Assembly: GCF_014195485.1 (NCBI RefSeq)
Contig: NZ_JACIBU010000001.1
Location: forward strand, 3,100,001 to 3,164,000
DNA length: 64,000 nucleotides
Source of the DNA: Modestobacter versicolor
GTDB taxonomy: Bacteria > Actinomycetota > Actinomycetes > Mycobacteriales > Geodermatophilaceae
Direction of reading: 5' to 3'
Numbering within the stretch: the stretch's first letter is position 1; each line of letters starts with the position of its first letter. A model generated the notes under the pieces. That model was not told the DNA's origin and did not search any database. It was given only the letters and a program-made list of their open reading frames with translations. Below are positions 3,760 through 49,481 of the stretch, one piece after another. A program made the position numbers and the translations under genes.

Positions 3760-4545
3760 ATGGAGATCGCAGGAGCACGGATCTGGGTCACCGGCGCCTC
3801 GACCGGGATCGGCGCGGCGCTGGCCCGCGAGCTGGCCGACCGCGGGGCGCGGGTGGCGATCAGCGCCCGCAGCGCCGACCAGCTCGCCGAGGTGGCCGGT
3901 GACCGGATGGCCGTCGTCCCGGTCGACGTCACCGACCGGGCGGCCACCGTGGCCGCGGGCCAGGCGGTGCGGGACGCGCTGGGCGGGCTGGACGTCGCGG
4001 TGCTCAACGCCGGCACCTGGTCGCAGTTCCACGTGGAACCGTGGGACTCCTCGCTGTTCGCCGACCACCTGCAGGTCAACCTGATGGGCGCGGTGCACAC
4101 CATGGAGGCCGTCGTCCCGCGGATGCTGGCCGAGGGGCGCGGCCGGGTCGTCGGGATGGCCTCGGTCGCCGGCTACCGCGGGCTGCCGGGCTCGGAGGCC
4201 TACGGGGCCGGCAAGGCGGCGCTGCTCAACCTGCTCGAGGCGCTGCGCGGGTCGCTGGGGCCGCGCGGCGTCGTCGTCCAGACGCTGTCGCCGGGGTTCG
4301 TGCGCACCCGGATGACCGACCGCAACCGCTTCCCGATGCCGTTCATGGTCGAGCCGGAGGCCGCCGCCCGGACCATCGCCGACGGCATCGCCCGGGACAA
4401 GGCGGAGATCGTCTTCCCGGTGCCGATGATGCTGGTGATGAAGGCCGCCCGGCTGGTGCCGACCCGGGCCTGGACCGCGCTGACGGCGACGATGGCCCGC
4501 CGGGGCCTGCACGGCGGGCCGAGCCGCCGTGCAGACCCCAGGTGA
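3760..4545 (+). CDS. Short-chain dehydrogenase/reductase
   Basis: NAD(P)-dependent oxidoreductase of the classical SDR family, 261 residues. Rossmann motif TGASTGIG is near residue 11; NAG is in the middle (AVLNAGTW); the active-site Ser and Y-x-x-x-K are in GMASVAGYRGLPGSEAYGAGKAAL. The C-terminus (RFPMPFMVEPEAAARTIADGI) resembles SDRs acting on lipid or sterol-like substrates, but the substrate is not known. An ATG 39 bases upstream in frame is less likely because it would overlap the divergent gene. A parS-like site lies inside the coding sequence at 4026-4039. Confidence 0.9.
   Translation: MEIAGARIWVTGASTGIGAALARELADRGARVAISARSADQLAEVAGDRMAVVPVDVTDRAATVAAGQAVRDALGGLDVAVLNAGTWSQFHVEPWDSSLFADHLQVNLMGAVHTMEAVVPRMLAEGRGRVVGMASVAGYRGLPGSEAYGAGKAALLNLLEALRGSLGPRGVVVQTLSPGFVRTRMTDRNRFPMPFMVEPEAAARTIADGIARDKAEIVFPVPMMLVMKAARLVPTRAWTALTATMARRGLHGGPSRRADPR
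4026..4039. promoter_or_regulatory. parS-like ParB binding site 1
   Basis: Exact 14-base palindrome GTTCCACGTGGAAC, identical to three others at 20461, 36377 and 49468. It matches the core of known chromosomal parS sites (Pseudomonas TGTTCCACGTGGAACA; actinobacterial form GTTTCACGTGAAAC). It is embedded in the SDR gene and read as Q-F-H-V-E-P. Confidence 0.72.
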
Positions 4546-4558
4546 GGCGCTGGACTGG

Positions 4559-4610
4559 CCCCCTCGCAGGGACCCGGCCCGAGCGGAGCGAGGGTCGGGG
4601 GGCGAGGGGG
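4559..4610. terminator. Bidirectional terminator, member of a dispersed repeat family
   Basis: Arms CCCCCTCGC (4559-4567) and GCGAGGGGG (4602-4610) with inner GACCC/GGGTC pairing, between the convergent stops at 4545 and 4618. On the minus strand it begins GAAGGACCCCCTCGCCCCCC, nearly the same as the element at 43379-43429, so it belongs to a repeat family. Confidence 0.65.
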
Positions 4611-4617
4611 TCCTTCT

Positions 4618-5373
4618 TCAGTCGCGGGGGCCGCCGGCGACGTAGATGACCTGACCGGAGACGAAGCCGGCGCCCTCGCTGCAGAGGAACGACGCGGTGT
4701 GCGCGATGTCCTCGGGCTGGCCGACCCGGGCGACCGGGATCTGCTTGGCGGCCATCTCCTTGAACTGCTCGAACGGCACGCCCACCCGCTCGGCGGTCTG
4801 CGCGGTCATCTCGGTCTCGATGAAGCCCGGCGCGATCGCGTTCGCGGTGACGTTGTAGCGGCCCAGCTCGATGGCGAGGGTCTTGGTGAACCCCTGCATG
4901 CCGGCCTTGGCCGCGGAGTAGTTGACCTGGCCGCGGTTGCCCAGCGCCGAGACGCTGGACAGGTTCACGATCCGGCCGTACTCGGCCTGGACCATGTGCT
5001 TCTGGGCGGCCTTGGTCATCAGGAACGCGCCCCGCAGGTGCACGCCGAGCACGGCGTCCCAGTCCTCGACGCTCATCTTGAACAGCAGGTTGTCCCGGGT
5101 GATCCCGGCGTTGTTCACCAGCACGGTGGGGGCGCCGAGCTCCTGGGCGACCCGCTCCACGGCGGCGTTGACCGACTCCTCGTCGGCGACGTTCGCGCCC
5201 ACGGCCAGCGCCTCGCCGCCGGCGGAGGTGATCGCCTCCACGGTGCCCGCGCAGGCCGCCTCGTCGAGGTCGAGCACCGCGACCTGCATCCCGTCCTGGG
5301 CGAACCGCCGTGCGACGGCCGCGCCGATCCCGCGTGCCGCTCCGGTGATGATCGCCGTCCGCTGCTCTGCCAC
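4618..5373 (-). CDS. fabG: 3-oxoacyl-ACP reductase-like SDR
   Basis: A 251-residue NAD(P)H-dependent reductase of the FabG type, which reduces 3-oxoacyl thioesters. TGAARGIG binds the cofactor; NNAG is followed by NLSSVSALGNRGQVNYSAAKAG, giving the Ser-Tyr-Lys triad; the C-terminal FVSGQVIYVAGG is typical of FabG and PhaB/FabG4-like proteins. The GTG start at 5373 follows GAGGAG with good spacing; longer in-frame starts lack this. It is not beside other fatty-acid genes, so it may serve a side pathway. Confidence 0.9.
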   Translation of the reverse strand: MAEQRTAIITGAARGIGAAVARRFAQDGMQVAVLDLDEAACAGTVEAITSAGGEALAVGANVADEESVNAAVERVAQELGAPTVLVNNAGITRDNLLFKMSVEDWDAVLGVHLRGAFLMTKAAQKHMVQAEYGRIVNLSSVSALGNRGQVNYSAAKAGMQGFTKTLAIELGRYNVTANAIAPGFIETEMTAQTAERVGVPFEQFKEMAAKQIPVARVGQPEDIAHTASFLCSEGAGFVSGQVIYVAGGPRD

Positions 5374-5501
5374 TGCGTCTCCTCGTCGAGTTCGCCAGCG
5401 GGCCGCCGCGGATCCCCGCCGCGGCCCGTCTTCCTGGCTCACTGCATAGCACCAGGCGCCCGGACGGCGCGCACCCGGCCGGTCGGCGGCAGGATCGGCG
5501 C

Positions 5502-5825
5502 GTGGCCTACCTCCTGCTCGCCTGCGCCATCGCCACCGAGGTCGCGGCGACCTCGCTGCTGCCGAGGACGGCCGGGTTCACCGTGCTGCTGCCCAGCCTG
5601 GCGGTGGTGGCCGGCTACGCGCTGTCGTTCGTGCTGCTGTCCCAGGTGGTGAAGACGGTGCCGGTGGCGGTGGCGTACGCGATCTGGTCGGCAGCCGGCA
5701 CCGCGGCCGTGGCGGCCATCGGCGCCACCTTCCTCGGCCAGCCGCTCAGCCCCTGGCAGGTGGCCGGCCTGGCGCTCGTCATCACCGGCGTCGTGCTGCT
5801 CCAGCTCGGCGGCGCCACCCACTGA
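5502..5825 (+). CDS. Small multidrug resistance (SMR) family transporter
   Basis: A 107-residue, four-helix membrane protein that exchanges protons for cationic compounds or guanidinium as a dimer. The membrane-embedded glutamate is present at residue 13 (LLLACAIATEVAATSLL). AVAYAIWSAAGTA and the C-terminal GVVLLQLG are also family-typical. The GTG start has no ribosome-binding motif; a CAGGAT hexamer ends six bases before it, so a leaderless transcript is possible. It could be a drug pump or a guanidinium exporter; the sequence alone does not decide. Confidence 0.9.
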   Translation: MAYLLLACAIATEVAATSLLPRTAGFTVLLPSLAVVAGYALSFVLLSQVVKTVPVAVAYAIWSAAGTAAVAAIGATFLGQPLSPWQVAGLALVITGVVLLQLGGATH

Positions 5826-5874
5826 CCGGAGACACCGGTCGAGGATGAGGTGTGAGTCACAGGTTGGTCGAGGT

Positions 5875-5897
5875 TTGGCCCGCTCCTGCCGGGCCAA
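5875..5897 (+). terminator. Inverted repeat between SMR gene and RsbW-like gene
   Basis: Eight-base perfect arms TTGGCCCG (5875-5882) and CGGGCCAA (5890-5897) with a seven-base loop, 50 bases past the SMR stop and 50 before the next start. It is a likely terminator, though a leader structure of the next gene cannot be excluded. Confidence 0.4.
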
Positions 5898-5947
5898 GAC
5901 AGGGGTTCGCCGTTCGTCGGTCAGCGGCCAGAGTGCGAGGAGACGTG

Positions 5948-6388
5948 GTGACGGGCGAGTCGGCGGGCCTGGCGTGGCCGTCGTCCCCACCGCCGCCGGC
6001 GGTCGACGGCTGGAGCTGGGAGCTCGAGCACGTCGCGCAGCTGCCCGGGGTCCGCGCCCAGCTGCGCCGGGGCCTGGCCCAGCACTCCGCGGGCGACCCG
6101 GTCGCCACCGAGCGCGACGAGGCCGTCGTCCTGGCCTTCGACGAGATGGCCTCCAACGCCCTGCGGCACGGCGGTGGGGGTGTCCGCGCCCGCGTGCAGC
6201 AGACACCCGACGCGTGGCTGATCGAGGTCCGGGACTCCGCCCCGCAGACGCCGCCCCGGCCGGCGGTCGGCCGCGACCCCAGCCAGGGCGGCCTCGGGCT
6301 CTACCTGATCGCCGAGATGGCCCACGACCACGGCTGGCACCTCACCGAGGGCCAGAAGGGCGTCTGGGCGCTGCTCCCCCGCCGCTGA
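5948..6388 (+). CDS. RsbW-like ATP-binding protein (anti-sigma kinase family)
   Basis: A 146-residue HATPase_c protein of the RsbW/SpoIIAB type, which in partner-switching systems phosphorylates a STAS anti-antisigma factor and sequesters a sigma factor. N-box FDEMASNALRHGGG and the glycine-rich lid GGLGLYLIAEM are clear; the G1 box is the reduced form DSAPQTPP common in actinobacteria. I take the GTG at 5948, five bases after AGGAG; GTG 5945 or an upstream GTG at 5852 are alternatives. It is a paralogue of the protein at 13615-14097. It converges with the SpoIIE phosphatase gene with one base between stops. Confidence 0.85.
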   Translation: MTGESAGLAWPSSPPPPAVDGWSWELEHVAQLPGVRAQLRRGLAQHSAGDPVATERDEAVVLAFDEMASNALRHGGGGVRARVQQTPDAWLIEVRDSAPQTPPRPAVGRDPSQGGLGLYLIAEMAHDHGWHLTEGQKGVWALLPRR

Positions 6389-6389
6389 C

Positions 6390-8936
6390 TCAGGGCGTCG
6401 GCGGCACGACCTCCGGCCCGGCCTCCGCCGGGCGCGGCCCGTCCTCCCAGTGCAACCGGACGGCGACCAGCGCGACGTCGTCCTCCGAGCCCCGCGGTCG
6501 CATCCGGGTCAGCACCTGGTCGCAGAGCTCCTCCAGCTCCAGCTCCCCGAGCTCGGCGAGCAGCTCGGCCAGCCGCGCGACGCCGTCGTCCAGCGGCAGG
6601 TCCGGCCCCTCGACCAGGCCGTCGGTGTACATCAGGACCGTCGCTCCCCGGCTCAGCACGACCACGTGCTCGCGGCGGACGGCGAGCGGGTCGACGCCGA
6701 GCATCAGGTCCGCCCGCTCGGTGGCGAGAACCTGCACGTGGCCGTCGGGGTGCAGCACCAGCAGCGGTGGGTGGCCGGCGTTCGACCAGCGCAGCCGGGT
6801 CTCCCCGCGCTCCCGGTCGACCGCCTCCTGCTCCAGCCGGGCCACCGCCGCGGTGGCCAGGGTGTGCACCTGCAGCCCCTCCATCGCCCGGTCCAGGGCC
6901 GCCAGGACGGCGGCCGGGCCGTTCCCGCCGCTGTAGGCGATCCCGCGCAGCAGGCTGCGCAGCTGGCCCATCGCGGCCGCGGCGACCGTGTCGTGGCCGA
7001 CGACGTCGCCGATGGCCAGCACGGTGGCCCCGCCCGGCTGGAGGAACGCGTCGTACCAGTCGCCGCCGACCTGGGCGGCCTGGACGGCGGGGACGTAGCG
7101 CACCGCGACCTGCGAGTGGTCGGGCTCGGGCGGGTCGGTGAGCAGGCTGCGCTGCAGCTCCTCCGCCATCCGGCGCTGCTGCTCGTGCAGCGCGGCGCTG
7201 TCCAGGGCCAGGGCGGCCCGGTCGGCGACCTCGCGCAGGGTGGCCCGGTCGACGGCGTCCATCGGGTCGCGGCCCTTGTCCCGGTACAGGCTCATCGCGC
7301 CGAGCACCCGGCCGCGGGCGACCAGCGCCAGGGCGACCGCCGTCCCGGGGTCCAGCTGCCAGTAGACGTCGCGCGCCGGCCCGTCGGGCAGCCCCCGGCC
7401 GACCGCGGCGGCGACGTCGGGCACCACGACGACCTCGCCGGTGGCCAGCGCGTCGACGATCGGCGCCGTCGAGTTCAGCGCCCCCAGCCGGACCCGGGCG
7501 TACTCGGCCGCCACCGGCCGGAGCTCGGGGTCGGCGTGCCAGCTGCCGACGTCGTGCAGCCGGCCGTCCTCCCCCACCAGGCTGGCGATCGCCCAGTCGG
7601 CGAGCTCGGGGACGACGGCGTGCAGCAGCTCCTGCAGCGCCCCGTGCCCGCCGCGCCGGTCGATCAGCGCGGTGGAGAGGGTGTCGGAGACCCGGGCGAT
7701 GAGCGCCAGCCGGCGGGCGTCCCGCCGGGCGGTCTCCTCCGCGCGCCGGCGCTCGGTGATGTCCAGGAAGTAGACCGACAGGCCGTCGGGGGCCGGCCAC
7801 ACCCGCAGCTCGTACCAGCCGTCCAGCGGCGGCGGGTAGTAGGCCTCGAACACGGTGGGCCGGCCGGTCTCCCGCGCGGCCCGGTAGTGCTCCTCGAACG
7901 GGCTGCCGACGGCGGCCGGGAACAGCTCCCAGATCGACCCGCCCAGCAGCTCTTCCCGGGACCGCCCCAGCAGCCGCTCGGCCTCGGCGTTGACGTAGCT
8001 GAAGGTCCAGTCCTCGGCGAGGGAGTAGAAGGCCGCCGACATCGACTCCAGCACCCGCGCCACCTGCGCCTCGCCCTCCCGGCGCCGGGTGGTGTCGTAG
8101 GCGGCGCCGAGCATCCGCACGCCGGCACCGCGCTCGTCGGGCAGCACCCGGCCCCGGCTGACCATCCAGCGGGTGCCGCCGGTGGGCAGCTGGACGCGGT
8201 ACTCGACCTCGAAGTCGCCGCACCGGTCGATGGCGGCCTGCAGCACGTCGCCGACCCGGGTGGCGTCGTCGGGGTGCAGCCGGTCGGTGAAGGCGTCGAT
8301 GCTCGCGGAGAAGCCGTCGGCCCCGTACCCGAACAGCTCCAGCAGCCGGTCGTCCCAGGCCAGCCGCCCGGAGACCAGGTCCCAGTCGAAGCTGCCGATG
8401 CCGGCCGCGTCGATGGCCAGGCCCCAGCGCAGCCGGCTGGCCTCGAACTCGGCGGTCAGCGCGGCCAGCTCCAGCTCGGTGGCCACCGGCATCGCCAGCT
8501 GGCCCAGCAGGACGACGTCGCCCTCGGTCCAGGTCCGGGGCTCGGGGCCGAAGACCGACAGGACGCCGATCACGTGGTCGCGGGCGGGGTCGACGAGCGG
8601 GACGCCGAGGAAGGCGACCGCGGCGCCCTCGCGGACCAGGGCCAGCTGCGCCGTCCGGGGGTCGGCGCGGGCGTCGCTGACGGCGAGGGGCGCCCGGTCG
8701 GCCGCGACCAGGCCGCTGAGGGTGTCGCCCGGGGGCAGCACGGTGCCGAGGGGACGCACGTGCGGCCCGGTGCCGCCGGCCATGGTCTGCACCTCGCCCA
8801 CGACGGCGACCCCCGCCGACGGCATGCCCAGCAGGGCGGCTGCCAGGTCGGTCAGCCGCTGCAGGCCCGGGGAGCCGACCGCCGTCGTCGCGACCCGGCG
8901 GGCCGCGGCGAGCCGCTCGGGGTCCAGCCGCACCAT
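6390..8936 (-). CDS. GAF-PAS-PAS-GAF-SpoIIE protein phosphatase
   Basis: An 848-residue multi-domain sensor phosphatase (PP2C/SpoIIE type), expected to dephosphorylate a STAS anti-antisigma factor. Approximate order: GAF (20-165), PAS (175-285; WDLVSGRLAWDDRLLELFGY), PAS (295-400; ending DITERRRAEE), GAF (410-590), SpoIIE (615-825). The catalytic part shows VGGDWYDAF, AIGDVVGHD, SNAGHPPLLVL, LMYTDGLVE and EDDVALVAVRL, so the metal-binding aspartates are intact. No transmembrane segment is seen, so it should sense cytoplasmic signals. Partner candidates are the RsbW-like proteins at 5948 and 13615 and the STAS protein at 13090. Confidence 0.93.
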   Translation of the reverse strand: MVRLDPERLAAARRVATTAVGSPGLQRLTDLAAALLGMPSAGVAVVGEVQTMAGGTGPHVRPLGTVLPPGDTLSGLVAADRAPLAVSDARADPRTAQLALVREGAAVAFLGVPLVDPARDHVIGVLSVFGPEPRTWTEGDVVLLGQLAMPVATELELAALTAEFEASRLRWGLAIDAAGIGSFDWDLVSGRLAWDDRLLELFGYGADGFSASIDAFTDRLHPDDATRVGDVLQAAIDRCGDFEVEYRVQLPTGGTRWMVSRGRVLPDERGAGVRMLGAAYDTTRRREGEAQVARVLESMSAAFYSLAEDWTFSYVNAEAERLLGRSREELLGGSIWELFPAAVGSPFEEHYRAARETGRPTVFEAYYPPPLDGWYELRVWPAPDGLSVYFLDITERRRAEETARRDARRLALIARVSDTLSTALIDRRGGHGALQELLHAVVPELADWAIASLVGEDGRLHDVGSWHADPELRPVAAEYARVRLGALNSTAPIVDALATGEVVVVPDVAAAVGRGLPDGPARDVYWQLDPGTAVALALVARGRVLGAMSLYRDKGRDPMDAVDRATLREVADRAALALDSAALHEQQRRMAEELQRSLLTDPPEPDHSQVAVRYVPAVQAAQVGGDWYDAFLQPGGATVLAIGDVVGHDTVAAAAMGQLRSLLRGIAYSGGNGPAAVLAALDRAMEGLQVHTLATAAVARLEQEAVDRERGETRLRWSNAGHPPLLVLHPDGHVQVLATERADLMLGVDPLAVRREHVVVLSRGATVLMYTDGLVEGPDLPLDDGVARLAELLAELGELELEELCDQVLTRMRPRGSEDDVALVAVRLHWEDGPRPAEAGPEVVPPTP

Positions 8937-9009
8937 GACCCCCTGCTCCCGTGGTCGTCCGGTGCGGGGGTCCTCCCCGCGCGTGCCGACCCGATCATGC
9001 CTGGTCCGG

Positions 9010-14549: not shown

Positions 14550-14551
14550 TC

Positions 14552-20460: not shown

Positions 20461-20474
20461 GTTCCACGTGGAAC
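20461..20474. promoter_or_regulatory. parS-like ParB binding site 2
   Basis: GTTCCACGTGGAAC preceded by T, giving TGTTCCACGTGGAACC, which differs by one base from the Pseudomonas 16-base consensus. It lies between the cinA stop (20478) and the start of the repeat-protein gene, in non-coding DNA. Confidence 0.78.
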
Positions 20475-20477: not shown

Positions 20478-21758
20478 TCAGGCGGGCGGACCGCCCAGCA
20501 GCAGCTGCCGGAGCAGGTGGACGGCGTGCGCCGTCGTCCGCTGCCGGATCGAGTCCCGCGACCCCATCAGGACCACCGACTTCGCGACCTCGCCGTCCGG
20601 ACCGACAGCGGCCAGGTGGACGGTGCCGACCGGCTTCTCGGCGGTGCCGCCGCCCGGTCCGGCGATGCCGGTCAGCCCGATTCCCACGTCGGAGCCGAAC
20701 CGGCTGCGCGCACCCTCGGCCAGTGCGCGGGCGACCTCGGGGCTCACCGCACCGGCCTGGGCCAGCGTCGCGGCGGGCACGTCGAGCAGCTGCTCCTTGG
20801 CGCTGTTCGCGTAGGCCGCCACCCCGCCGAGCACCCACGCCGAGGAGCCCTCGACCGCGGTCAGCCGGGCGGTGAGCAGCCCGCCGGTGCACGACTCCCC
20901 CACCGCGACCGTCCAGCCGCGGTCCGCGAACGCGGTGGCGACCAGCGCGTCGGCGGTGGGCCCGTCGCTGAACAGCGTGTCCCCGAAGTCGGCGGTGACC
21001 GCCTGCTCCAGCCGCCCGTAGGCCGGCTCGGCGCCCGCGTCGTAGCGGGTGACGATCTCCAGCTCGCCGTCGCGGAGGCAGGTGGTGACCTCCAGCCCGG
21101 CCAGCTCGTCGTCGACCCGGCGCAGGGTGGCCGCGAGCTCCGACTCCGGGGTGCCCCACAGCCGCAGGGTCCGCTGCCGCAGCTCGGTGGCACCGGCCAG
21201 CGCTGCGCGCACCGGGGCGGAGTCGACGGCAGCGGGCCACATGCCCTGCAGCTCCGACGGCGGCCCGGGCAGCACCAGCACCGGCGGCCCGCTGCGCCCC
21301 TCGGCCACCGGCACGACCAGCCCCGGCGCCGTCCCGACCGGTTCCAGCACGGTCGCCCCGGCGGGCACCTGCGCCTGCTTGCGGACGCCGGCTGCGGTCG
21401 CTCCCGGGTCCATCCGCCAGCCGCGGCGGGCGGAGAGCCGGGCCACCACGGCTGCGATCCGCTCCTCCAGCGCCTCGTCGACGATCGAGGGCCGGCCCTG
21501 GAAGTCGCCGACGACGGCCGCGGTGAGGTCGTCGGCGGTCGGCCCGAGGCCCCCGCTGGTGATGACCAGGTCGACGCTGCCGGCCAGGAAGCCCAGCGCC
21601 GCGCGCAGGTCCTCCGGCCGGTCGCCGACCACGACGACCGACCCGACGTCGACCCCGCGGGCCCGGAGCGCCTCGGCCAGCCAGGGGCCGTTGCGGTCGC
21701 TCACCCGCCCGGTGAGCACCTCGGTACCGGTGACCACGATGCCCGCACGCACTGCCAC
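20478..21758 (-). CDS. cinA: CinA family nicotinamide-nucleotide amidohydrolase
   Basis: A 426-residue two-domain protein. The N-terminal MoCF-like domain (VVTGTEVLTGRVSDRNGPWLAEALRARG, ITSGGLGPTADDLTA, LVLPGPPSELQGMW) hydrolyses ADP-ribose-type compounds in relatives. The C-terminal domain (VAVGESCTGGLLTARLTAVEGSS, VLGGVAAYANSAKEQLLDVP, GIAGPGGGTAEKPVGTVHLA) deamidates nicotinamide mononucleotide. Both look intact. The GTG start lies six bases after TAGGGT, suggesting a leaderless mRNA. In other actinobacteria cinA sits near pgsA/recA; that context is absent here. Confidence 0.94.
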   Translation of the reverse strand: MAVRAGIVVTGTEVLTGRVSDRNGPWLAEALRARGVDVGSVVVVGDRPEDLRAALGFLAGSVDLVITSGGLGPTADDLTAAVVGDFQGRPSIVDEALEERIAAVVARLSARRGWRMDPGATAAGVRKQAQVPAGATVLEPVGTAPGLVVPVAEGRSGPPVLVLPGPPSELQGMWPAAVDSAPVRAALAGATELRQRTLRLWGTPESELAATLRRVDDELAGLEVTTCLRDGELEIVTRYDAGAEPAYGRLEQAVTADFGDTLFSDGPTADALVATAFADRGWTVAVGESCTGGLLTARLTAVEGSSAWVLGGVAAYANSAKEQLLDVPAATLAQAGAVSPEVARALAEGARSRFGSDVGIGLTGIAGPGGGTAEKPVGTVHLAAVGPDGEVAKSVVLMGSRDSIRQRTTAHAVHLLRQLLLGGPPA

Positions 21759-35588: not shown

Positions 35589-36368
35589 ATGTCCGAGCCC
35601 ACCGTCACCCGCAGCGACGCCGGCGGGGTCGCGACGCTGACCCTGCAGCGCCCCGCGCTCTCCCACCAGCTGCGCACCGAGCTGATGGACCACGTGCAGG
35701 CGGTGGCCGCGGACGGGTCGGTGCGCGCCGTGCTGCTCACCGGCAGCGGCCGGGCCTTCTGCGTGGGGCAGGACCTCGCCGAGCACGTCGAGGTGCTCCG
35801 CGGGAACGCGGAGAGCTCCCTGTCGGTGGTCGAGGCCGAGTACAACCCGCTGATCCGGGCGCTGGCCGCGCTCCGGGTGCCGCTCGTGGTCGGCATCAAC
35901 GGCGCCTGCGCCGGCGCCGGGATGGGCATCGCGCTCGCCGGTGACCTGCGGGTGGCGGCGGCCGGGGCGAAGTTCACCACCGCGTTCGCCGGCATCGGGC
36001 TGTCCAGCGACTCGGCGCTGGCCTCCCGGCTGGTGCACTGCGTCGGCGGGTCGCGGGCCACCGAGCTGCTGCTGTTCCCCGAGCCGTTCACCGCCGAGAT
36101 GGCCGGCCACTGGGGGCTGGTGCACCGGGTGGTGCCGCCGGAGCAGGTGCTGGCCGAGTCGCAGGCGCTGGCCGCCCGGCTCGCGACCGGACCGACGCTG
36201 GCCTACCGGGCGATCAAGACCGTGCTGGCCACCGCCGCGACCGACTCGCTGGAGGACACCCTGGCGCTGGAGGCGAGCCTGCAGACCGAGCTGGGTGGGA
36301 GCGCCGACCACCGCGAGGCGGTGGAGGCGTTCCTGGCCAAGCGCCCCGCGGAGTTCACCGGCAGGTGA
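35589..36368 (+). CDS. Enoyl-CoA hydratase/isomerase family protein
   Basis: A 259-residue crotonase-fold enzyme. GSGRAFCVGQDLAEH and GINGACAGAGMGIALAGDLRVAAAGAKFTTAFAGIGLSSDS form the oxyanion pocket region. The aspartate in VGQDL and the absence of the canonical hydratase glutamate pair suggest a PaaG-like isomerase (2-(1,2-epoxy-1,2-dihydrophenyl)acetyl-CoA isomerase branch) rather than a standard hydratase. It is co-transcribed with the dehydrogenase upstream. The ATG at 35589 is right for the fold. A parS-like palindrome follows immediately after its stop. Confidence 0.9.
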   Translation: MSEPTVTRSDAGGVATLTLQRPALSHQLRTELMDHVQAVAADGSVRAVLLTGSGRAFCVGQDLAEHVEVLRGNAESSLSVVEAEYNPLIRALAALRVPLVVGINGACAGAGMGIALAGDLRVAAAGAKFTTAFAGIGLSSDSALASRLVHCVGGSRATELLLFPEPFTAEMAGHWGLVHRVVPPEQVLAESQALAARLATGPTLAYRAIKTVLATAATDSLEDTLALEASLQTELGGSADHREAVEAFLAKRPAEFTGR

Positions 36369-36398
36369 CGCCCGGCGTTCCACGTGGAACGCCGGGCG
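36369..36398. terminator. 30-base perfect palindrome containing parS-like site
   Basis: A perfect palindrome of 30 bases centred between 36383 and 36384, directly after the hydratase stop (36368) and six bases before the stop of the convergent DUF4394 gene (36405). As RNA it could form a GC-rich stem on either strand. The central 14 bases are the parS-like site. Confidence 0.6.
36377..36390. promoter_or_regulatory. parS-like ParB binding site 3
   Basis: GTTCCACGTGGAAC, exact copy, flanked symmetrically by GGC/GCC so that the palindrome extends to 30 bases. It lies in the 36-base gap between two convergent genes. Confidence 0.75.
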
Positions 36399-36404: not shown

Positions 36405-37301
36405 TCAGAGCTGGCCGGGCACGAGGGCGATGTCGCTCACCTGCCGGTCGCGCGGGAAGGTGCCCTCCGGCGTGACCCGGCCGGTCAGCAGGGAGACCTC
36501 GTAGAGGCCGTAGCGACCACCCACCTGCAGCACCAGGTAGGGGAAGAGCTCGACCGCGCTGCCCCGGCGGACCTCGCTGTAGATGTCGAAGCCGGCGTCA
36601 CCGGTGGCGTCCACGCCGAGCTTGCCGGTGGCGGCGAGCAGGCCGGCGTTGGCCGGGGACTGGATCACGACCTGGTCCAGCACCGTGTCGACGTCGAAGA
36701 GGGTCGTGGCCGTGGCCGGGTCCGCGTCGTTGTTGGTGTACGCGGCACCGGTGACCCCGGTGGCCGTCGTCGGCGTGGTGGCCGGCGGGGCAGCCGGGTA
36801 GCTCAGCACGCCGTCGGTCGACGTGCCGCCCTGCGCGCCCACGTCGTGCCGCAGGTTCTGGCCGGCGTCGCTGACGATCCGCAGCCGGTCGACGACCGGG
36901 TTGAAGTCGATGTCGAAGGCGGTGCCGGAGAGCGCGACGCTGAGCTGGGAGACCTTGGTGGCCGTGGCCCCGGCGATCGTGTAGACCCCGCCCTTGTCGC
37001 CGACGCCGTAGAGCAGGCCGTTGGCCGGGCGGTGGTCGATGCCGACGAGCCGGCCGTCACCGACCAGGCCCTGCACGACGCCCAGGTCGCGGGCCCGCTC
37101 CGGGCGATCGGTGTCGAAGGAGACGAGCCGCTTCCCGTCGGGGGTCAGGCCGATCGCGGCCAGGTTCTCCCCGTCGTGCCGGCCGTCCGAGGACTGCCCC
37201 CCACGCGGGGCGTCGCCGTCGGCGAGGGCCGCCGGGGCGGTGGCCGCCATGAACCCGAGCACGGCTGCTCCGGCGATGATGCGGGTGCGCTTCGAGGACA
37301 T
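36405..37301 (-). CDS. Secreted DUF4394 domain protein
   Basis: A 298-residue exported protein. The signal peptide (KRTRIIAGAAVLGFMAATAPAALA) has a cleavage site near ALA-DGD. The mature part carries the DUF4394 pattern: AIGLTPDGKRLVSFDTDRPE, VGIDHRPANGLLYGVGDKGGVYTI, FDIDFNPVVDRLRIVSDAGQNLRHDV, AAYTNNDADPATATTLFDVD. It probably folds as a beta-propeller. The function of the family is not known to me. ATG 37301 follows a GGAG-like site. Confidence 0.88.
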   Translation of the reverse strand: MSSKRTRIIAGAAVLGFMAATAPAALADGDAPRGGQSSDGRHDGENLAAIGLTPDGKRLVSFDTDRPERARDLGVVQGLVGDGRLVGIDHRPANGLLYGVGDKGGVYTIAGATATKVSQLSVALSGTAFDIDFNPVVDRLRIVSDAGQNLRHDVGAQGGTSTDGVLSYPAAPPATTPTTATGVTGAAYTNNDADPATATTLFDVDTVLDQVVIQSPANAGLLAATGKLGVDATGDAGFDIYSEVRRGSAVELFPYLVLQVGGRYGLYEVSLLTGRVTPEGTFPRDRQVSDIALVPGQL

Positions 37302-42258: not shown

Positions 42259-42265
42259 GCCCAGA

Positions 42266-42271
42266 AAGGTA
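42266..42271 (-). promoter_or_regulatory. Putative -10 element for leaderless gntR-type mRNA
   Basis: TACCTT on the minus strand with seven bases to the GTG of the regulator. It fits TANNNT, and no ribosome-binding motif is present in between. Confidence 0.4.
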
Positions 42272-42290
42272 CTGCACCAGGAGACGTCTA

Positions 42291-42304
42291 TACGTCATGA
42301 CGTA
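42291..42304. promoter_or_regulatory. Operator-like palindrome between GntR-type gene and pfkA
   Basis: TACGTCATGACGTA, a perfect 14-base palindrome, immediately preceded by AGACGTCT (42282-42289), another perfect palindrome. It overlaps TACGGT (42302-42307), a possible -10 for pfkA. Confidence 0.55.
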
Positions 42305-42342
42305 CGGTTCAGCTGCCCGACCCCCCTTTCGGAGGAGAGCAC

Positions 42343-43371: not shown

Positions 43372-43378
43372 CGAAGGA

Positions 43379-43429
43379 CCCCCTTGCCCCCCACCACTCG
43401 CAAGCTCGCGGCGGGGCCCTGCAAGGGGG
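43379..43429. terminator. Bidirectional terminator, repeat-family member
   Basis: Arms CCCCCTTGC (43379-43387) and GCAAGGGGG (43421-43429) between convergent stops at 43371 and 43445. The sequence starts GAAGGACCCCCTTGCCCCCC, as in the element at 4559-4610 with C-to-T and matching G-to-A changes in the two arms. Confidence 0.65.
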
Positions 43430-43444
43430 CCGGGACGGGGGCCG

Positions 43445-44644
43445 TCAGCGGCGGGGGCGGACCGGGTCGCCGGGCTGGAGCTCGATGACGGTGACCTCCG
43501 GGCGCGCGCCCACCCGCATCGGCGGCCCCCAGTAGCCGGCGCCGGCGGTGACGTAGAGCTGGGTGTCGCCCTGCTGCGACCAGCCCTCGACGGCCGGCTG
43601 GTCGAGCAGCACGGCGTAGTCGAAGGGCCACAGCTGCCCGCCGTGGGTGTGCCCCGACAGCTGGAGGTCGACCCCGGCCGCCCGGGCCTGCTCGACCTGC
43701 ACCGGCTGGTGGGCCAGCAGGACGACGGGGACGTCGTCGTCCCGGCCGTCCAGCGCGGCGTCCAGGTCGGCGCCGTGCCCGGGCAGGCCGGAGGCGGCGG
43801 CGGTGCGGTCGTCGATGCCGGCCAGGTCGAACGACGCCCCACCCCGGCGGATCGGCACCCGCTCGTTGCGCAGCACGTCGATGCCCAGGGTCGGCAGGTG
43901 CGCCAGCCACCCCGCGGTGTCGACGAAGTACTCGTGGTTGCCGGTGACGAAGAAGACGCCCTGGTCGCTGACCAGGTCGGCCAGCGGGGCAGCGTCCTCG
44001 CGCAGCTCCTCGACGTCGCCGTCGACCAGGTCGCCGACGATCGCGACCACGTCGGGCCGCTGGGCGTTCACCGTCTCGACCAGCCGCTCGAACCGGCGGC
44101 CGCCGTAGGTGGCCGACAGGTGCCCGTCGGAGAAGGTGACGATCCGCAGCCCGGCCAGCGCCGGGTCCAGCCGGGGGATCCGGATGGGCACCCGGCGGAC
44201 CACCGGCGCGGAGTTGGCCAGCGCCACGCCGGTGCCCGCCACCCCCACGGCCACCACGCCCGCCCCCAGCGCGAGGAAGCGCCGCCGGGAGAGCTGGGTC
44301 TCGGCCGCCCGGGCCGCACCCGCCTCCCGGCTGCGGCGGAACAGGCGCAGCGCCACCCGGATCGGCTCGGTCGCCAGCACCGCGAGGAAGAGGTAGAACG
44401 CCAGCCCGAGCCAGGTGTAGCCGACCCAGTCCAGCGGCGCGGCGACGCCCATCGGCACCCGGCCCCGCAGCACCACCGCCAGCGTGGGCAGCAGGGCCAG
44501 CACGGCGGTGAGCAGGGTCAGGCGCCGCCGGGTGCGGCCGGGCCGGGTGGTGCCGCGGACCAGCCGCCACCACAGGTAGCCGTGCAGCAGCGCCATCGCC
44601 AGCAGCACGACGACACCGAAGCCGAGCACCTCGATGAGGGTCAC
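43445..44644 (-). CDS. Membrane-bound metallophosphoesterase (YkuE/YaeI-like)
   Basis: A 399-residue calcineurin-type phosphoesterase. Two or three N-terminal helices (VLGFGVVVLLAMALLHGYLWW, LLTAVLALLPTLAVVL, GLAFYLFLAVLA) precede LSRRRFLALGAG, a twin-arginine-like internal segment with a further helix. The catalytic domain has FSDGHLSATYGG, VGDLVDGD, GNHEYFVD, LLAHQPVQ and SGHTHGGQLWP. In FSDGHLS the usual metal aspartate-x-histidine (DxH) spacing is kept. The substrate in relatives is a lipid or nucleotide phosphoester; undefined here. Confidence 0.88.
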   Translation of the reverse strand: MTLIEVLGFGVVVLLAMALLHGYLWWRLVRGTTRPGRTRRRLTLLTAVLALLPTLAVVLRGRVPMGVAAPLDWVGYTWLGLAFYLFLAVLATEPIRVALRLFRRSREAGAARAAETQLSRRRFLALGAGVVAVGVAGTGVALANSAPVVRRVPIRIPRLDPALAGLRIVTFSDGHLSATYGGRRFERLVETVNAQRPDVVAIVGDLVDGDVEELREDAAPLADLVSDQGVFFVTGNHEYFVDTAGWLAHLPTLGIDVLRNERVPIRRGGASFDLAGIDDRTAAASGLPGHGADLDAALDGRDDDVPVVLLAHQPVQVEQARAAGVDLQLSGHTHGGQLWPFDYAVLLDQPAVEGWSQQGDTQLYVTAGAGYWGPPMRVGARPEVTVIELQPGDPVRPRR

Positions 44645-44669
44645 CGGCTGCTCCGCGGGCTCCCTCCGC

Positions 44670-46271
44670 CTACTTCGTCGACGTCCGGAGCACCGGGCGC
44701 AGCTGCGGCCAGCGCAACCAGAACTCGCGCTCGGCCTGCTCGCCCCGGGCCTGCTCCAGGGCGTGCAGCCGGCCCCAGGTCCAGGCGTTCTCCCCGGCGG
44801 CGAAGGCCTGCAGCCCCAGCTGGGTGCACAGCGGGCGGGTGACGAACGTGTCCTGCCGGTCGCCGAGCACCTCCTGCACGCCCTTCAGCGCGCTGACCAG
44901 CTCCGCGACCGGCCGGCCGAGCACCGGCACGGCCGCCTCGGCGGTGTAGCGCACCCGCTTGGCGGCCTTGCGCACCTCGTGCAGCGCCTCGGGGTCGTCG
45001 CTGTCCTGGGCGGCGTCGACCGCGTGCCGCAGCCGCTTGGCGGTGTGCGCCACGACCTCGCGCAGCACCTCGTCGGCGGGCCGGACGGCGTCCTCGGTGA
45101 GCGGCGGCTCGGCGACCAGCGCGTCCAGGTCGTCGCGCAGCTGCAGGTACTCCGGGGAGCTGAGCGCCTTGCGCGCCCGCACGTCACCGGCCTGCTCGTC
45201 CTTGAGCGCGGCCTGCTGCAGCCGGGCGGCGACCGGGCCGAGCACCAGCTCGACCGGCTGGGCGGCGACCAGCTCGCGCAGGTGGGCCAGCGCGACCTCG
45301 GCGTCCCGGGCCGGGGACAGCGCGGTGCCGACCGCGGCCAGCTCCTCGCGCAGCGGGTCGGTCTGCGAGCGGTCGAGCACCGGCCGGAAGGCGGCCAGCG
45401 TGCTGCGCAGCCGGCGGCAGGCGACCCGCACCTGGTGCACGCCGTCGGCCTGCCCGGTGCGCACCATCAGGTCGGCGTCCTGCAGCGCCCGCACCTGCAG
45501 CTGCAGCGCGGCGCGCACCACCTCGCCGGCCGGCGCGCTGGAGGTCCGGCCCTGCTCGGCCTTCCGCTTCTTGCCCTTCTTCGCCTTCTTGCCCTTCTTC
45601 GCGCCCTGCTCCTCGCGGGCCGCGGCCGGCGGGAGCTCGGGGCCGACCACGGCGGCCAGCCGGTCGGCGAGCACCCGGGTCAGCTTGGACGGCGCGTCGG
45701 CGGGCTGGGCGCCGGCCGCGACCACGGTCGTCGCCAGCGCGGCCAGCACCTCGTCGTCGCCGTCGACCAGCTCCACCTCGACCTCGCGCCAGACGGTGAC
45801 GACGGCGGCCTCGCCCGGCTCGGCCGGAAGTGCCGTGCCGGTCACGTGGTCGTCGGCGACCTCGGCCAGCACGCGGCCCTCGGCGTCGACGAGCTCGGTG
45901 ACCACCCGGCGGGTGCGCAGCAGCGCCACCTGCCCGGTGGGCGCGCGGCGCACGATGCCCAGCACCGGCTCCAGGACCGCCTTCGGCGGGGTCTTCGCGG
46001 CCCGGCCCAGCGGGGAGTGCAGCTCCCGGCGGGCACCGGCCACCGGTGGCAGCTTCACGTGCCACCCGGCGTCGGCGCCCCCGGTGCGGCGCCGCAGCGT
46101 CACCTTGGCGCGGGCCAGCCGCAGGTCGGCGGTGTCGTAGTAGGCGGCCTCCAGCTGGTGCTCGACCGGCTCGCGGACCTCCGCCACGCCCGGCACCCCG
46201 GTCAGGTCGGGGAGCACGAACGTCTCGTCGACGTCGAACTTCCGCTCGATCTCCAGATGCTGCACAGCCAC
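44670..46271 (-). CDS. CYTH and CHAD domain protein
   Basis: A 533-residue protein. The N-terminal CYTH domain (1-200) begins with the EIERKF triphosphate-binding motif and continues with YYDTADLRLARAKVTLRRRTGG. A lysine-rich linker (GAKKGKKAKKGKKRKAEQGR) connects to a CHAD domain (about 235-520) with its conserved histidine-rich helices (GVHQVRVACRRLRSTLAAFRPVL, LHEVRKAAKRVRYTAEA). CHAD domains bind polyphosphate, and CYTH enzymes hydrolyse triphosphate-type substrates, so a polyphosphate-related role is likely. GTG 46271 follows GAGGAG by seven bases. Confidence 0.9.
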   Translation of the reverse strand: MAVQHLEIERKFDVDETFVLPDLTGVPGVAEVREPVEHQLEAAYYDTADLRLARAKVTLRRRTGGADAGWHVKLPPVAGARRELHSPLGRAAKTPPKAVLEPVLGIVRRAPTGQVALLRTRRVVTELVDAEGRVLAEVADDHVTGTALPAEPGEAAVVTVWREVEVELVDGDDEVLAALATTVVAAGAQPADAPSKLTRVLADRLAAVVGPELPPAAAREEQGAKKGKKAKKGKKRKAEQGRTSSAPAGEVVRAALQLQVRALQDADLMVRTGQADGVHQVRVACRRLRSTLAAFRPVLDRSQTDPLREELAAVGTALSPARDAEVALAHLRELVAAQPVELVLGPVAARLQQAALKDEQAGDVRARKALSSPEYLQLRDDLDALVAEPPLTEDAVRPADEVLREVVAHTAKRLRHAVDAAQDSDDPEALHEVRKAAKRVRYTAEAAVPVLGRPVAELVSALKGVQEVLGDRQDTFVTRPLCTQLGLQAFAAGENAWTWGRLHALEQARGEQAEREFWLRWPQLRPVLRTSTK

Positions 46272-46397
46272 GCGTCCACTCCTCGTCCATGGGCCGTTCA
46301 CCTCAGCCCGTCGGTCCAGGGTCTACCCGACGGAGATGAACAGCCACGTGGGAGCGCGCGTCGCGGGCCGCACAGCCGGGGTCGGCAGGATGGCGGC

Positions 46398-47366
46398 GTG
46401 CTCCTCTCCCGTCGCGCTGCCCTGGCCCTCGCCCTCCCCTGGGCCGGCTGGGCGGCCGCCCGCGCGGCCGGTGCCGACCGCGGCTTCCCGCTGGTGCCGG
46501 CGATGGCGTTCACCCGGTACGCGGCCGGCACCAGCGTCCTGCCGGTGGCCGTCGCGGCGCTGACCCGCTCCCGGGCCGCGGCGCTGGTCGGCGGCGGAGC
46601 AGCGGCCGTGCTGGCCGGGTCCGTCCTCGGGCCCACCGTGCTCGCCGGCACCCGCCGGACCGTGGACGCCGGACCGCAGGGCCGCCCGCTGCGCGTGGTG
46701 ACGCTCAACATGCTGCACGGGCGGGCCGACCCGGCCGCCGTCGTCGCGCTCGCCCGCGGCACGGACGCCGACGTGCTGGCCCTCTCCGAGGTCACCCCGG
46801 ACGCGGTCACCGCGCTGCTGGGCACCGGCGTCGCCGACCTGCTCCCGCACGCCCACGTCGTGCCGGCCGCGGAGGGCCGACCGCCGGGCGGGGGCGGCGC
46901 GCTGTGGACCCGGCTGGAGGTGCTGTCCCGCAGCGTGGTGCCCGGCCGCTTCGGGCAGCCCGCCGTCCGGCTGGCGGTGCCCGGTGGAGCCGACGTCGAG
47001 GTGACCGCCGTGCACACCCACCCGCCGTCCCGGTCGACCCGCCACGTCCTCCGCTGGGAGGAGGACCTGCGGCTGCTCCCGGAGCCCGAGGACGACGTGC
47101 TCCGGGTGCTGGCCGGCGACTACAACGCGACCCCGGACCACACGGCGTTCCGGCGGCTGCTCCGCCGGGGCTGGGTGGACGCCGCCGCGGCCACCGGGCA
47201 GGCGCTGCGCCCGACCTGGTCGCTGGAGCACGCCCGGCTGCCCCGGTTGAGCCTGGACCACGTGCTCGTGGACCCGCGGATCGGCGTGGCCGGCTTCCAG
47301 GTGGTGCACGTGCCCGGGAGCGACCACCGGGCCCTCGTCGCCGACCTGCGGCTGCCACCGGGCTGA
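46398..47366 (+). CDS. Endonuclease/exonuclease/phosphatase family protein
   Basis: A 322-residue EEP-fold protein. Three N-terminal hydrophobic segments precede the catalytic domain: RVVTLNMLHGRADP, DVLALSEVTPDAV, VEVTAVHTHPP, LAGDYNATPDHTAFRRLL and SLDHVLVDPRIGV, ending GSDHRALVADL. The Asn, Glu, Asp-Asn and Asp-His residues of the family are present. Substrate may be a phospholipid, inositol phosphate or nucleic acid. GTG 46398 lies seven bases after AGGA; the divergent CYTH-CHAD start is 126 bases away. Confidence 0.85.
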   Translation: MLLSRRAALALALPWAGWAAARAAGADRGFPLVPAMAFTRYAAGTSVLPVAVAALTRSRAAALVGGGAAAVLAGSVLGPTVLAGTRRTVDAGPQGRPLRVVTLNMLHGRADPAAVVALARGTDADVLALSEVTPDAVTALLGTGVADLLPHAHVVPAAEGRPPGGGGALWTRLEVLSRSVVPGRFGQPAVRLAVPGGADVEVTAVHTHPPSRSTRHVLRWEEDLRLLPEPEDDVLRVLAGDYNATPDHTAFRRLLRRGWVDAAAATGQALRPTWSLEHARLPRLSLDHVLVDPRIGVAGFQVVHVPGSDHRALVADLRLPPG

Positions 47367-47381
47367 GCCGGGGAGGAGAGC

Positions 47382-47416
47382 CCCGGGCGGCGGGTTCCGC
47401 ACCACCGCCGCCCGGG
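47382..47416 (+). terminator. Hairpin after the EEP gene
   Basis: Twelve-base perfect arms CCCGGGCGGCGG (47382-47393) and CCGCCGCCCGGG (47405-47416), 15 bases past the stop. It lies between convergent genes and could serve both. Confidence 0.65.
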
Positions 47417-47535
47417 CCCCTCGGGCATGCCCGCATCGACGCGATGTGCACGCAGGGCGTGTTACGTCTCTGTGAACCGGCGTGTCGCCGCGCGCGGGGT
47501 CACGTTCTGCGAACGGGTCCGGACAGCGCGTCGGG

Positions 47536-47751
47536 TCAGTCGACCCGGACGTCCTCCTGGCCGACCACCGAGACGACGTCACCGCGGTGCAGCTGCCGGC
47601 CGCGGCGCTCCTCGGGCTCGCCGTTCACGGTGACGTCGCCGGAGGCGAGGACGTCCTTCACCTGGGCGCCGGAGGGCACGGCGTCGACCAGCTTCAGCAG
47701 CTGGCCCAGCCGGATGGACTCCTCGCCGGGACGGATCTCGATGGTGCGCAC
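47536..47751 (-). CDS. S4 domain RNA-binding protein
   Basis: A 71-residue free-standing S4 protein (YbcJ/RlbA-like). IRLGQLLKLVDAVPSGAQVKDVLASGDVTVNGEPEERRGRQLHRGD is the S4 fold with its conserved G-D-V-x-V-N-G turn. Such proteins bind structured RNA, often ribosomal. It is 19 bases downstream of the MOSC gene and probably in the same transcript. Gap 47367-47535 holds only the hairpin above. Confidence 0.85.
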   Translation of the reverse strand: MRTIEIRPGEESIRLGQLLKLVDAVPSGAQVKDVLASGDVTVNGEPEERRGRQLHRGDVVSVVGQEDVRVD

Positions 47752-47770
47752 GTCGTCGATCCTCCCCCGG

Positions 47771-48499
47771 TCAGGCCGGGGCGACGACGTCGCCCACGGC
47801 GAGCTCCCCCGGCCGGGCGACCAGCGCGCCGACCGCCAGCGCCCCGCCGAGCTCCCGGTGGATGGTCTTGAGCACCCCGGTGTCCCGGCCGATGCCGCCG
47901 GCCTGCGGCCGGGTGGTCATCACGCAGCGCGGCACCCGCCGGACGACGTCCAGCTCGGCGGTGCCCGCCCGCACCCGGGAGCCGACCAGCGCGTCCTCCC
48001 CGGCACCGGCCAGCAGCACGTTGGCCCGGAAGCGCCGCCGGTCCCAGCTGCCCAGCGACCCGGTCGACAGCAGGGTCACCCGGGCGTCGGCGTTGTCGTG
48101 GAAGGCGCCGTCGGCTCCGGCGAAGGGGTTCCACCGGCCGCCCTCACCCTGCTCGTCGTCGGCCGGGTCCTCGTAGCGCCGGGCGCCGGAGACCTCGGCG
48201 GCCGGGCGCAACGCCACCGGCCGGCCGGCCCAGCCGGAGAGCACCGCGTCGTCGCGGGTGACCGTGCCGTCGGGGAGCACGACCTCGGCCCGCCCGTCGG
48301 CCCGCAGCCGGCCGGTCGCGAACAGCAGGTCCGGCACCCGCCGGGCGGTCAGCCCGAAGCCGGTCGCCACGTCGAACAGCGCCCAGCCGCGGTCGCCGGC
48401 GATCCCCTCCGGACCCAGCTCGGCGCGGTCCAGGCGCTCGCCCTGCAGCGACTTCACCGGGAACCGCCACAGCTCCAGCACCCGCAGCTCCGCGGTCAC
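47771..48499 (-). CDS. MOSC domain protein
   Basis: A 242-residue MOSC protein with the N-terminal beta-barrel extension (ELWRFPVKSLQGERLDRAELGPEGIAGDRGWALFD). The core FRANVLLAGAGEDALVGSRVRAGTAELDVVRRVPRCVMTTR contains the conserved cysteine thought to bind the molybdenum cofactor. It resembles YiiM/MTARC-like proteins that reduce N-hydroxylated compounds. GTG 48499 overlaps the upstream stop by four bases, so translation is coupled to the epimerase gene. Confidence 0.87.
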   Translation of the reverse strand: MTAELRVLELWRFPVKSLQGERLDRAELGPEGIAGDRGWALFDVATGFGLTARRVPDLLFATGRLRADGRAEVVLPDGTVTRDDAVLSGWAGRPVALRPAAEVSGARRYEDPADDEQGEGGRWNPFAGADGAFHDNADARVTLLSTGSLGSWDRRRFRANVLLAGAGEDALVGSRVRAGTAELDVVRRVPRCVMTTRPQAGGIGRDTGVLKTIHRELGGALAVGALVARPGELAVGDVVAPA

Positions 48500-49416
48500 G
48501 CCGGCGTCCACCCCAGGGTCCAGGTGCCCGACCAGGTCTCCCCCGGCTCCAGCACGACCAGGTCGGCGCCGTCGGCCAGCGCGTTCGGCGGGCAGGTCAT
48601 CGGCTCGACCGCCAGGCTCCGCCGCTGCTGCCCGGCCGGCAGGGTGTCGCCGGAGAAGACCTGCAGCCACGACCACGACCCGTCGACGGCGAGCTCCAGC
48701 GCCCCGGCCGGGCCGCTGAGCCGCACCCTGGCCCAGCCGTCGTCGTCCCGGACCAGGTCGGTCACCGGGTCGTCGAGCCGGCGGTCGCCGATCCGGCCGA
48801 CGGCGCCGTCGAACGGCCGGTTCTCGCCGGTCGGCAGGCCGCCGTCCACGACCATCGCCGTCCGCGCCGGGACGGTCAGCGACGCGTCGGCCAGCCCGCC
48901 GTCGGCGTCGGCGCCCACGTGCAGGTAGGGGTGCATGCCCACGCCGAACGGGGCCGCGGCGTCACCGGCGTTGCGCACCCGCACCGTGACCGTGAGGCGC
49001 CCGGGCGCGAGGTCGTAGTCCAGCGCGGCCGCGAGCCGGAACGGGTAGCCGGCCCGGGGCTCGACGACGGCGCCGACGGTCACCCCGGCCGGCCGCTCCG
49101 CGAGCACCGCGAACGGCTGCGCCGAGACCAGCCCGTGCACCGCGTTCGGGGAGGCCGGGCTGACCACGTCGAGCTGCAGGTCGCGGCCCGCCCACCGCCA
49201 GCTCCCGCCGCGCAGCCGGTTGGGCCAGGGCAGCAGCACGCCACCCCGCCGTCCGGCCGGCACGGTGCCCGAGGCGTAGCCGTCGAGCACGTGCCAGTCG
49301 CCGGTGACCAGCTCCCGCAGACCGCCGCCGCGCAGGTCGACGGCGAGCCGGGTGTTCCCCAGCGACACCTCGGCGTCCCGGGGCTCGGTGGGCGGGAAGG
49401 GCGGGTCCAGCGGCAT
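48496..49416 (-). CDS. Aldose 1-epimerase family protein
   Basis: A 306-residue galactose mutarotase-like protein interconverting sugar anomers. LPWPNRLRGGSWRWAGRDLQLDV, NAVHGLVSAQPFAVLAER (one catalytic His), GVGMHPYLHVGADADG (the second) and LAVEPMTCPPNALADG (the catalytic Glu) are all present. ATG 49416 follows GAGGAGG. It heads an operon with the MOSC and S4 genes. The divergent gene start is 148 bases away, with a parS-like site in between. Confidence 0.9.
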   Translation of the reverse strand: MPLDPPFPPTEPRDAEVSLGNTRLAVDLRGGGLRELVTGDWHVLDGYASGTVPAGRRGGVLLPWPNRLRGGSWRWAGRDLQLDVVSPASPNAVHGLVSAQPFAVLAERPAGVTVGAVVEPRAGYPFRLAAALDYDLAPGRLTVTVRVRNAGDAAAPFGVGMHPYLHVGADADGGLADASLTVPARTAMVVDGGLPTGENRPFDGAVGRIGDRRLDDPVTDLVRDDDGWARVRLSGPAGALELAVDGSWSWLQVFSGDTLPAGQQRRSLAVEPMTCPPNALADGADLVVLEPGETWSGTWTLGWTPA

Positions 49417-49467
49417 GGGTCCTCCTCGGCAGGCTCGCGGACAGCTCACCACAGCGGCCCGCCGCGC

Positions 49468-49481
49468 GTTCCACGTGGAAC
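49468..49481. promoter_or_regulatory. parS-like ParB binding site 4
   Basis: GTTCCACGTGGAAC, exact copy, in the divergent intergenic region between the epimerase and the DUF1707 gene. Confidence 0.75.

Follow-up and report, generated by a model that had tools for sequence, protein, structure and literature searches.

A 64-kb window of the Modestobacter versicolor genome (C1:3100001-3164000, where contig 1 spans 4.10 Mb of a 4.59-Mb assembly in two contigs) carries four exact copies of the palindrome GTTCCACGTGGAAC. Judged from sequence, these copies are very probably parS sites of the chromosomal ParABS segregation system and form the left part of a centromere region at dnaA-gidB-parA-parB, which would comprise two tiers of sites, with graded loading of ParB in the outer one. 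ParABS and parS are well known; the new part is a conserved, distance-sorted second class of sites, whose function is putative.

Exact parS sites and the ParABS locus

The four copies lie at 4026-4039, 20461-20474, 36377-36390 and 49468-49481 and are spaced 16.4, 15.9 and 13.1 kb apart, in agreement with a preliminary description of the window that had been made from the sequence alone. Searching the window with up to two mismatches revealed no match beyond these four, and the same search in dinucleotide-preserving shuffles of the window gave a mean of 0.08 matches and a maximum of 1, with none of 100 shuffles reaching four. The T/A form GTTTCACGTGAAAC is absent from the window, and a 2-mismatch search for it returned only the same four GTTCCACGTGGAAC places.

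The preliminary description had read the palindromes as ParB sites, and this reading is supported, the copies not being scattered evenly over the genome. Analysis of the whole assembly revealed 11 exact copies of GTTCCACGTGGAAC, all within 3104026-3263534 (a span of 159,508 bases, 3.5% of the assembly). For 11 randomly placed sites, a simple scan bound on such clustering is 3e-14. The genes parA, parB and dnaA all lie inside this 160-kb span. The exact sites are about 11-28 kb apart, except for one tandem pair, in which two sites 23 bp apart stand between the gidB stop and the parA start.

The ParB N-terminal domain (PF02195) was detected at E 0.001 in a single protein of the genome, encoded at 3190063 (+), 26 kb past the right end of the window. 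The ParB frame (5610-6872 of locus L019) matches PF02195 (5.8e-36), PF17762 (5.6e-35) and PF23552 (6.1e-7), corresponding to the ParB_N, HTH_ParB and dimerisation domains; the preceding frame encodes ParA (PF13614, 8.8e-55) and the frame before that GidB. The closest named ParBs are those of Modestobacter sp. VKM Ac-2977 (89%) and Ac-2986 (85%), and the local protein reads as an ordinary actinobacterial ParB. The gene dnaA is located at C1:3183138 (-), 19 kb past the right end of the window, which bears out the earlier claim of a nearby origin; by gene order, the origin is about 20 kb to the right of the window.

The palindromes bear the features of parS sites: a sequence of 14-16 bp around CACGTG that matches known parS (the core in Pseudomonas aeruginosa and Myxococcus xanthus), copies clustered at dnaA/parAB (11 of 11 exact sites), a cognate ParA and a three-domain ParB in the same genome, and conservation above that of the flanking sequence, for which the numbers are given below.

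An outer tier of one-mismatch sites

Searching the genome with one mismatch revealed a further 11 sites, all at 2848636-3431405 around parB and none elsewhere, an outer tier that the site inventory of the preliminary description had overlooked. Eight of these are GTTGCACGTGGAAC (on either strand), in which one half reads GTTGC in place of GTTCC, and three are GCTCCACGTGGAAC, in which one half reads GCTCC. The mismatch always falls at position 4/11 or 2/13, and CACGTG is never touched. The 11 exact sites form a core extending from about -86 to +74 kb of parB, and the one-mismatch sites extend from about -341 to +241 kb, with one of the eight GTTG sites inside the core, at +45 kb. In this genome, distances to parB are greater for the one-mismatch than for the exact sites (Mann-Whitney P 1.5e-4).

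The same arrangement was observed over 11 family genomes (this one included), where 93 of 98 exact sites are no more than 100 kb from parB, compared with 15 of 63 GTTG sites. The median distance to parB was 45 kb for exact and 122 kb for GTTG sites, and the median was greater for GTTG sites in 11 of 11 genomes. The pooled P of 6e-22 for this comparison of distances overstates the evidence, since related genomes have sites in common through descent and the 100-kb cut-off was chosen post hoc. Positions were available in full or in part for 14 family genomes, from which G030, G051 and G055 were excluded (fragmented, or with partial positions), together with four GTTG sites off parB's contig (G005 C12, G018 C7, G010 C10 and G025 C1) and all mixed sites (GTTT/GAAC and GTTG/AAAC); of the one-mismatch types, the search in relatives covered GTTG.

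Exact sites were also found at recurring distances from parB across genera, with sites at -1.4 and +13 kb in 11 of 11 genomes and at about -13 to -15 kb in 10 of 11 (the exception being G020). Even spacing of the exact sites was considered (coefficient of variation 0.32, P 0.0008 here; P 0.004-0.027 in five other genomes; not significant at 0.05 in G005, G020, G021, G025 and G048), and no claim is based on it, the sites being shared by descent. The orientation of the GTTG half was treated likewise: it faces parB in 43 of 63 sites in the 11 genomes (6/8 here, 8/9 in G005, 6/7 in G015 and 5/6 in G022; 2/5 in G021, 2/4 in G010 and 1/3 in G025), and no claim is made, as the sites are shared by descent and the bias is mainly in one genus.

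Conservation of the two site classes

Conservation was assessed by aligning 25 sites with the relatives G005, G015, G018 and G034, and 38 of the 100 pairs had an alignment across the site. All 14 bases were kept in 33 of the 38 aligned pairs, compared with 5.6 predicted from flanking 14-mers. At exact sites, 15 of 19 pairs were fully kept, and at variant sites 18 of 19; the four failures at exact sites all fall in the tandem pair beside parA, where the relatives carry the partner GTTTCACGTGGAAC. In none of the 38 pairs with these four relatives does an exact site stand opposite a GTTG site. The outer GTTGCACGTGGAAC class is thus both placed round parB and conserved.

Two GTTG sites, at +197 kb within a creatininase gene and at +111 kb within a YaaA-family gene, are unchanged in 4 of 4 genomes, two of these genomes being from another genus. 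The GTTG sites at +197, +111 and +45 kb read TTG-CAC-GTG-GAA in frame, and six of the seven variant sites listed as in-gene read either this or CTC-CAC-GTG-GAA (three of four among the GTTG ones). Since both GAA (1.7% of the codons for Glu) and TTG (0.9% of those for Leu) are very rare in the region, coding constraint alone is a poor explanation of GTTG conservation.

Proposed function and comparison with known parS systems

The comparisons below draw on passages of the cited papers. ParB is described as a CTP (cytidine triphosphate)-bound dimer that binds parS, closes into a clamp, slides into the flanks and recruits SMC, with ParA supplying the pulling force (PMC7022226, PMC12511625); by analogy with these well-studied relatives, the same chain of steps would operate here. 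Exact sites would load ParB well, and GTTG and GCTCC sites, with one half altered, would load less. The outer weak sites could then extend ParB/SMC loading outward at a lower rate, with the main traction point staying at the origin. Such a weak outer tier would fit a gradient of the kind seen elsewhere: in P. aeruginosa, parS is needed within a zone of about 650 kb round oriC (PMC5098823), and in Caulobacter crescentus, insertion of additional parS declines steadily between ori and mid-arm as a function of the distance to the native cluster (PMC5815017).

In P. aeruginosa and M. xanthus, this 14-mer has been documented as parS (PMC4368675, PMC5098823, PMC3899335), and it occurs in nine of the open-licence papers searched, parS work on these two species among them. 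In P. aeruginosa (parS1-parS10), it forms the four strong sites near oriC, and six less perfect sites lie elsewhere (PMC4368675, PMC5098823); an intact CACGTG together with the place of the mismatch sets ParB affinity in vitro. The order of these affinities follows the number and place of mismatches (PMC4368675). Unlike the sites described here, however, its six imperfect sites vary in their letters, with two mismatches in a 16-mer, and are not significantly bound in vivo. P. aeruginosa, which belongs to another phylum, has four perfect sites; M. versicolor has 11, spread over 160 kb, together with a one-mismatch variant that recurs and is conserved. In M. xanthus, the consensus is TGTTCCACGTGGAACG, and many sites likewise lie near the origin and parAB (PMC3899335), but 22 sites are packed into 3 kb.

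Streptomyces and other actinobacteria also have several to many sites around oriC, with parAB near dnaA (PMC7022226, PMC8743542). Their parS sequences differ, given in a review table as GTTTCACGTGAAAC for Mycobacterium smegmatis, TGTTNCACGTGAAACA for Corynebacterium glutamicum and tGTTTCACCTGAAACa (as printed) for Streptomyces coelicolor, and those of Streptomyces show a bias towards the right side of oriC, with a mean spacing of 5.6 kb in the origin island (PMC7022226, PMC8743542). The passages of these two papers on Streptomyces and actinobacterial parS contain no mention of a conserved GTTG tier. Neither strand of the GTTG 14-mer GTTGCACGTGGAAC was found in the open-licence papers searched, and no ParB or parS study in Geodermatophilaceae (Modestobacter/Blastococcus) was found there, judged from listings.

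It is unlikely that only the exact sites work as parS, with the outer GTTG and GCTCC sites being tolerated, decayed copies hardly bound by ParB. This alternative draws on the degenerate sites of P. aeruginosa, which are weaker in vitro and not significant in vivo (PMC4368675, PMC5098823), and on the rarer extra parS insertion from ori to mid-arm in C. crescentus (PMC5815017), which would favour weakening of distal sites. Decay would, however, yield many kinds of mismatch, and there are two kinds only among 11 sites; moreover, all 14 letters are retained in 18 of 19 aligned pairs at variant sites, the same variant occurs in 52 of 56 family genomes, and most of the in-gene variants use codons that are very rare here (GAA, TTG).

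Several observations weigh against a working two-tier region of ParB loading. The weakness of the outer sites is itself a prediction from their letters, and these sites could be inert, because the two-mismatch sites of P. aeruginosa are not significantly bound in vivo (PMC5098823); conservation argues otherwise. The tiers have exceptions: GTTG sites lie close to parB not only here (+45 kb) but also in G005, G015 and G022 (+42 to +57 kb), single exact sites lie far out in G005 (-203 kb) and G025 (-115 kb), and the tiers are intermixed in G020. Alignments across the site are missing for 62 of the 100 site-genome pairs, including all those of the sites at 20461, -341 kb and +241 kb, partly as a result of partial coverage of G034, G018 and G015. 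GC skew gives no clear origin signal in this genome. With up to two mismatches, which adds seven two-mismatch sites, the genome total of 29 equals that of a reversed-pattern control (29), so the two-mismatch number carries no weight, and the numbers and clustering of exact and one-mismatch sites constitute the evidence. A pattern left free at positions 2, 4, 11 and 13 matches 29 places, compared with 41 for its control, so that with this pattern, too, clustering counts and number does not; 25 of the 29 are in the parB zone, and the remaining four are of the type G[GC]TGCACGTGCA[GC]C, three on contig 1 and one on contig 2.

These four off-origin places (C1:1273935, 1422099 and 2227058, and C2:21463), two of which are the perfect palindromes GGTGCACGTGCACC, are probably unrelated to parS.

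For the family as a whole, the case is evenly balanced that Geodermatophilaceae have a graded centromere, consisting of a strong symmetric core of about +/-90 kb and a conserved asymmetric class (GTTCC/GTTGC) lying mostly in the outer few hundred kilobases, with selection keeping the two classes apart in sequence and position. Site strength would then be inherited as a second variable, governing the reach of ParB/SMC loading from the origin. One parS site suffices in P. aeruginosa (PMC4368675, PMC5098823), which raises the question of why bacteria keep many. A lineage with two conserved, distance-sorted classes provides a natural setting for testing whether the strength of sites is adjusted to their distance from the origin, with the sites to alter already identified, and it extends the parS repertoire to a family for which no ParB/parS study was located in open-licence listings.

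Distribution in the family and class

The pattern GTTNCACGTGNAAC was found in 56 of 56 family genomes searched (this one included), with 1-23 sites each, and its reversed control gave no match in any of the 56. The C/G palindrome is the commonest form in the 13 other family genomes for which letters were available in full or in part. Its exact form was detected in 20 of 118 class genomes, namely this one (11 copies) and 19 of 117 outside the family, with 1-5 copies each. The suggestion that the CC/GG variant is a lineage form therefore holds at the level of the family, the variant being scarce elsewhere in the class, and the C/G palindrome as the Geodermatophilaceae form of parS is supported.

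The asymmetric form GTTGCACGTGGAAC occurs in 52 of 56 family genomes, compared with 6 of 295 other class genomes (once each), and the layout in two tiers seems peculiar to the family. The related GTTGCACGTGAAAC is present as a single copy in 7 of the 117 class genomes searched outside the family. GTTGCACGTGGAAC is missing from the four T-type family genomes, G007, G009, G016 and G023 (genera g7 and g9), which have only 1-2 sites, all adjoining parAB and all GTTTCACGTGAAAC. Their genomes are small (3.0-3.7 Mb) and fragmented, and their ParBs form a distinct group. Within Geodermatophilaceae, parS sites have multiplied or been lost.

In a ParB tree of 26 rows, a branch with support 100/99 separates the 11 C-type genomes (the row for G048 being a fragment) from the four T-type genomes. 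The ParB helix-turn-helix reads LMKLPVKV in the C-type (LLKLPVKV in G021) and LLRLPVRV in the T-type. A ParB residue code for C or T at position 4 was considered and dropped, as K/R at that place also occurs in other T-type genera. Analysis of 80 named loci near related ParBs (up to 10 kb on each side) revealed mostly T/A sites and some mixed C/A or T/G sites; C/G sites were present in six of the 80, from both Modestobacter, Kineococcus vitellinus, Cellulomonas hominis, Sanguibacter suaedae and an Acidimicrobium metagenome-assembled genome.

The constancy of the asymmetric form and its near confinement to the family within the class would also be expected if a different DNA-binding protein read GTTGCACGTGGAAC at the outer sites. 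This is very improbable: the genome has the single PF02195 protein found at E 0.001, the outer sites have the parS core and surround parB, and the four family genomes with few, T/A-type sites have no GTTG sites, as expected if the same ParB reads both classes.

Placement of the sites relative to genes

Gene contexts were derived with a codon-usage gene caller, not from curated annotation, with a coverage of 0.90 in the 280-kb core region. The features of the window are as follows (positions within the window).

4026-4039, unstranded: exact parS site GTTCCACGTGGAAC, inside a short-chain dehydrogenase/reductase (SDR) gene, 86 kb from parB; 14/14 bases kept in 2/2 relatives with a crossing alignment
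3760-4545, + strand: SDR gene hosting the first site (PF00106, E 3.4e-42)
20461-20474, unstranded: exact parS site, intergenic, 3 bp downstream of the stop codon of a CinA-family gene (20478-21752, -)
36377-36390, unstranded: exact parS site flanked by two genes whose 3' ends face each other, for an enoyl-CoA hydratase (35589-36368, +) and a DUF4394 protein (36405-37301, -)
36371-36396, unstranded: perfect 26-bp palindrome around the third parS site; terminator-like hairpin possible, -22.8 kcal/mol
49468-49481, unstranded: exact parS site between two divergently oriented genes, for an aldose epimerase (48496-49416, -) and a DUF1707 protein (49565-50092, +)

The gene calls and the PF00106 match confirmed that three of the window sites are intergenic and one is inside the SDR gene, as first described. 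The alignments of the three relatives with a match at 20461 end before that site, which leaves its conservation with no aligned pair. The site at 36377 keeps 14/14 bases in the single relative, of three with a match, whose alignment spans it, and the site at 49468 keeps 14/14 in 2/2 relatives with a crossing alignment.

Genome-wide, with the two members of the tandem pair at parA counted separately, 8 of the 11 exact sites and 5 of the 11 one-mismatch sites fall between genes (P 3e-5 and 0.016), compared with 14.9% of the 14-mers in the 280-kb core region that have the same GC content. Of these 13 intergenic sites, three of which are in the window, 7 lie within 10 bp of a gene 3' end, compared with 7.4% expected (P 1e-5), and perhaps this placement spares promoters. 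The corresponding counts of intergenic sites in relatives were 4/12 in G005, 2/11 in G015 (P 0.16), 3/8 in G018 and 1/1 in G034.

That the palindromes are operators of a transcription factor, or some other repeat without a role in segregation, can safely be dismissed: CACGTG cores also occur in the sites of other regulators and three window sites are intergenic, but no GTTNCACGTGNAAC site in this genome is more than 342 kb from parB, in three single-contig relatives all such sites are within 451 kb of it (20/20 in G020, 13/13 in G034 and 10/10 in G048), the scanned host and neighbour genes are unrelated, and the 7 intergenic sites next to gene 3' ends are not at promoters. In fragmented relatives, a few GTTNCACGTGNAAC sites are on contigs of unplaced position.

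A second perfect 26-bp palindrome is present at C1:3263515-3263540. Like the one around the third window site, it has a predicted hairpin of -22.8 kcal/mol, and both lie just past gene 3' ends; we would guess that these two hairpin-forming parS sites may double as terminators. One tRNA gene was found in the window, tRNA-Leu (CAG), at 50944-51028 (-).

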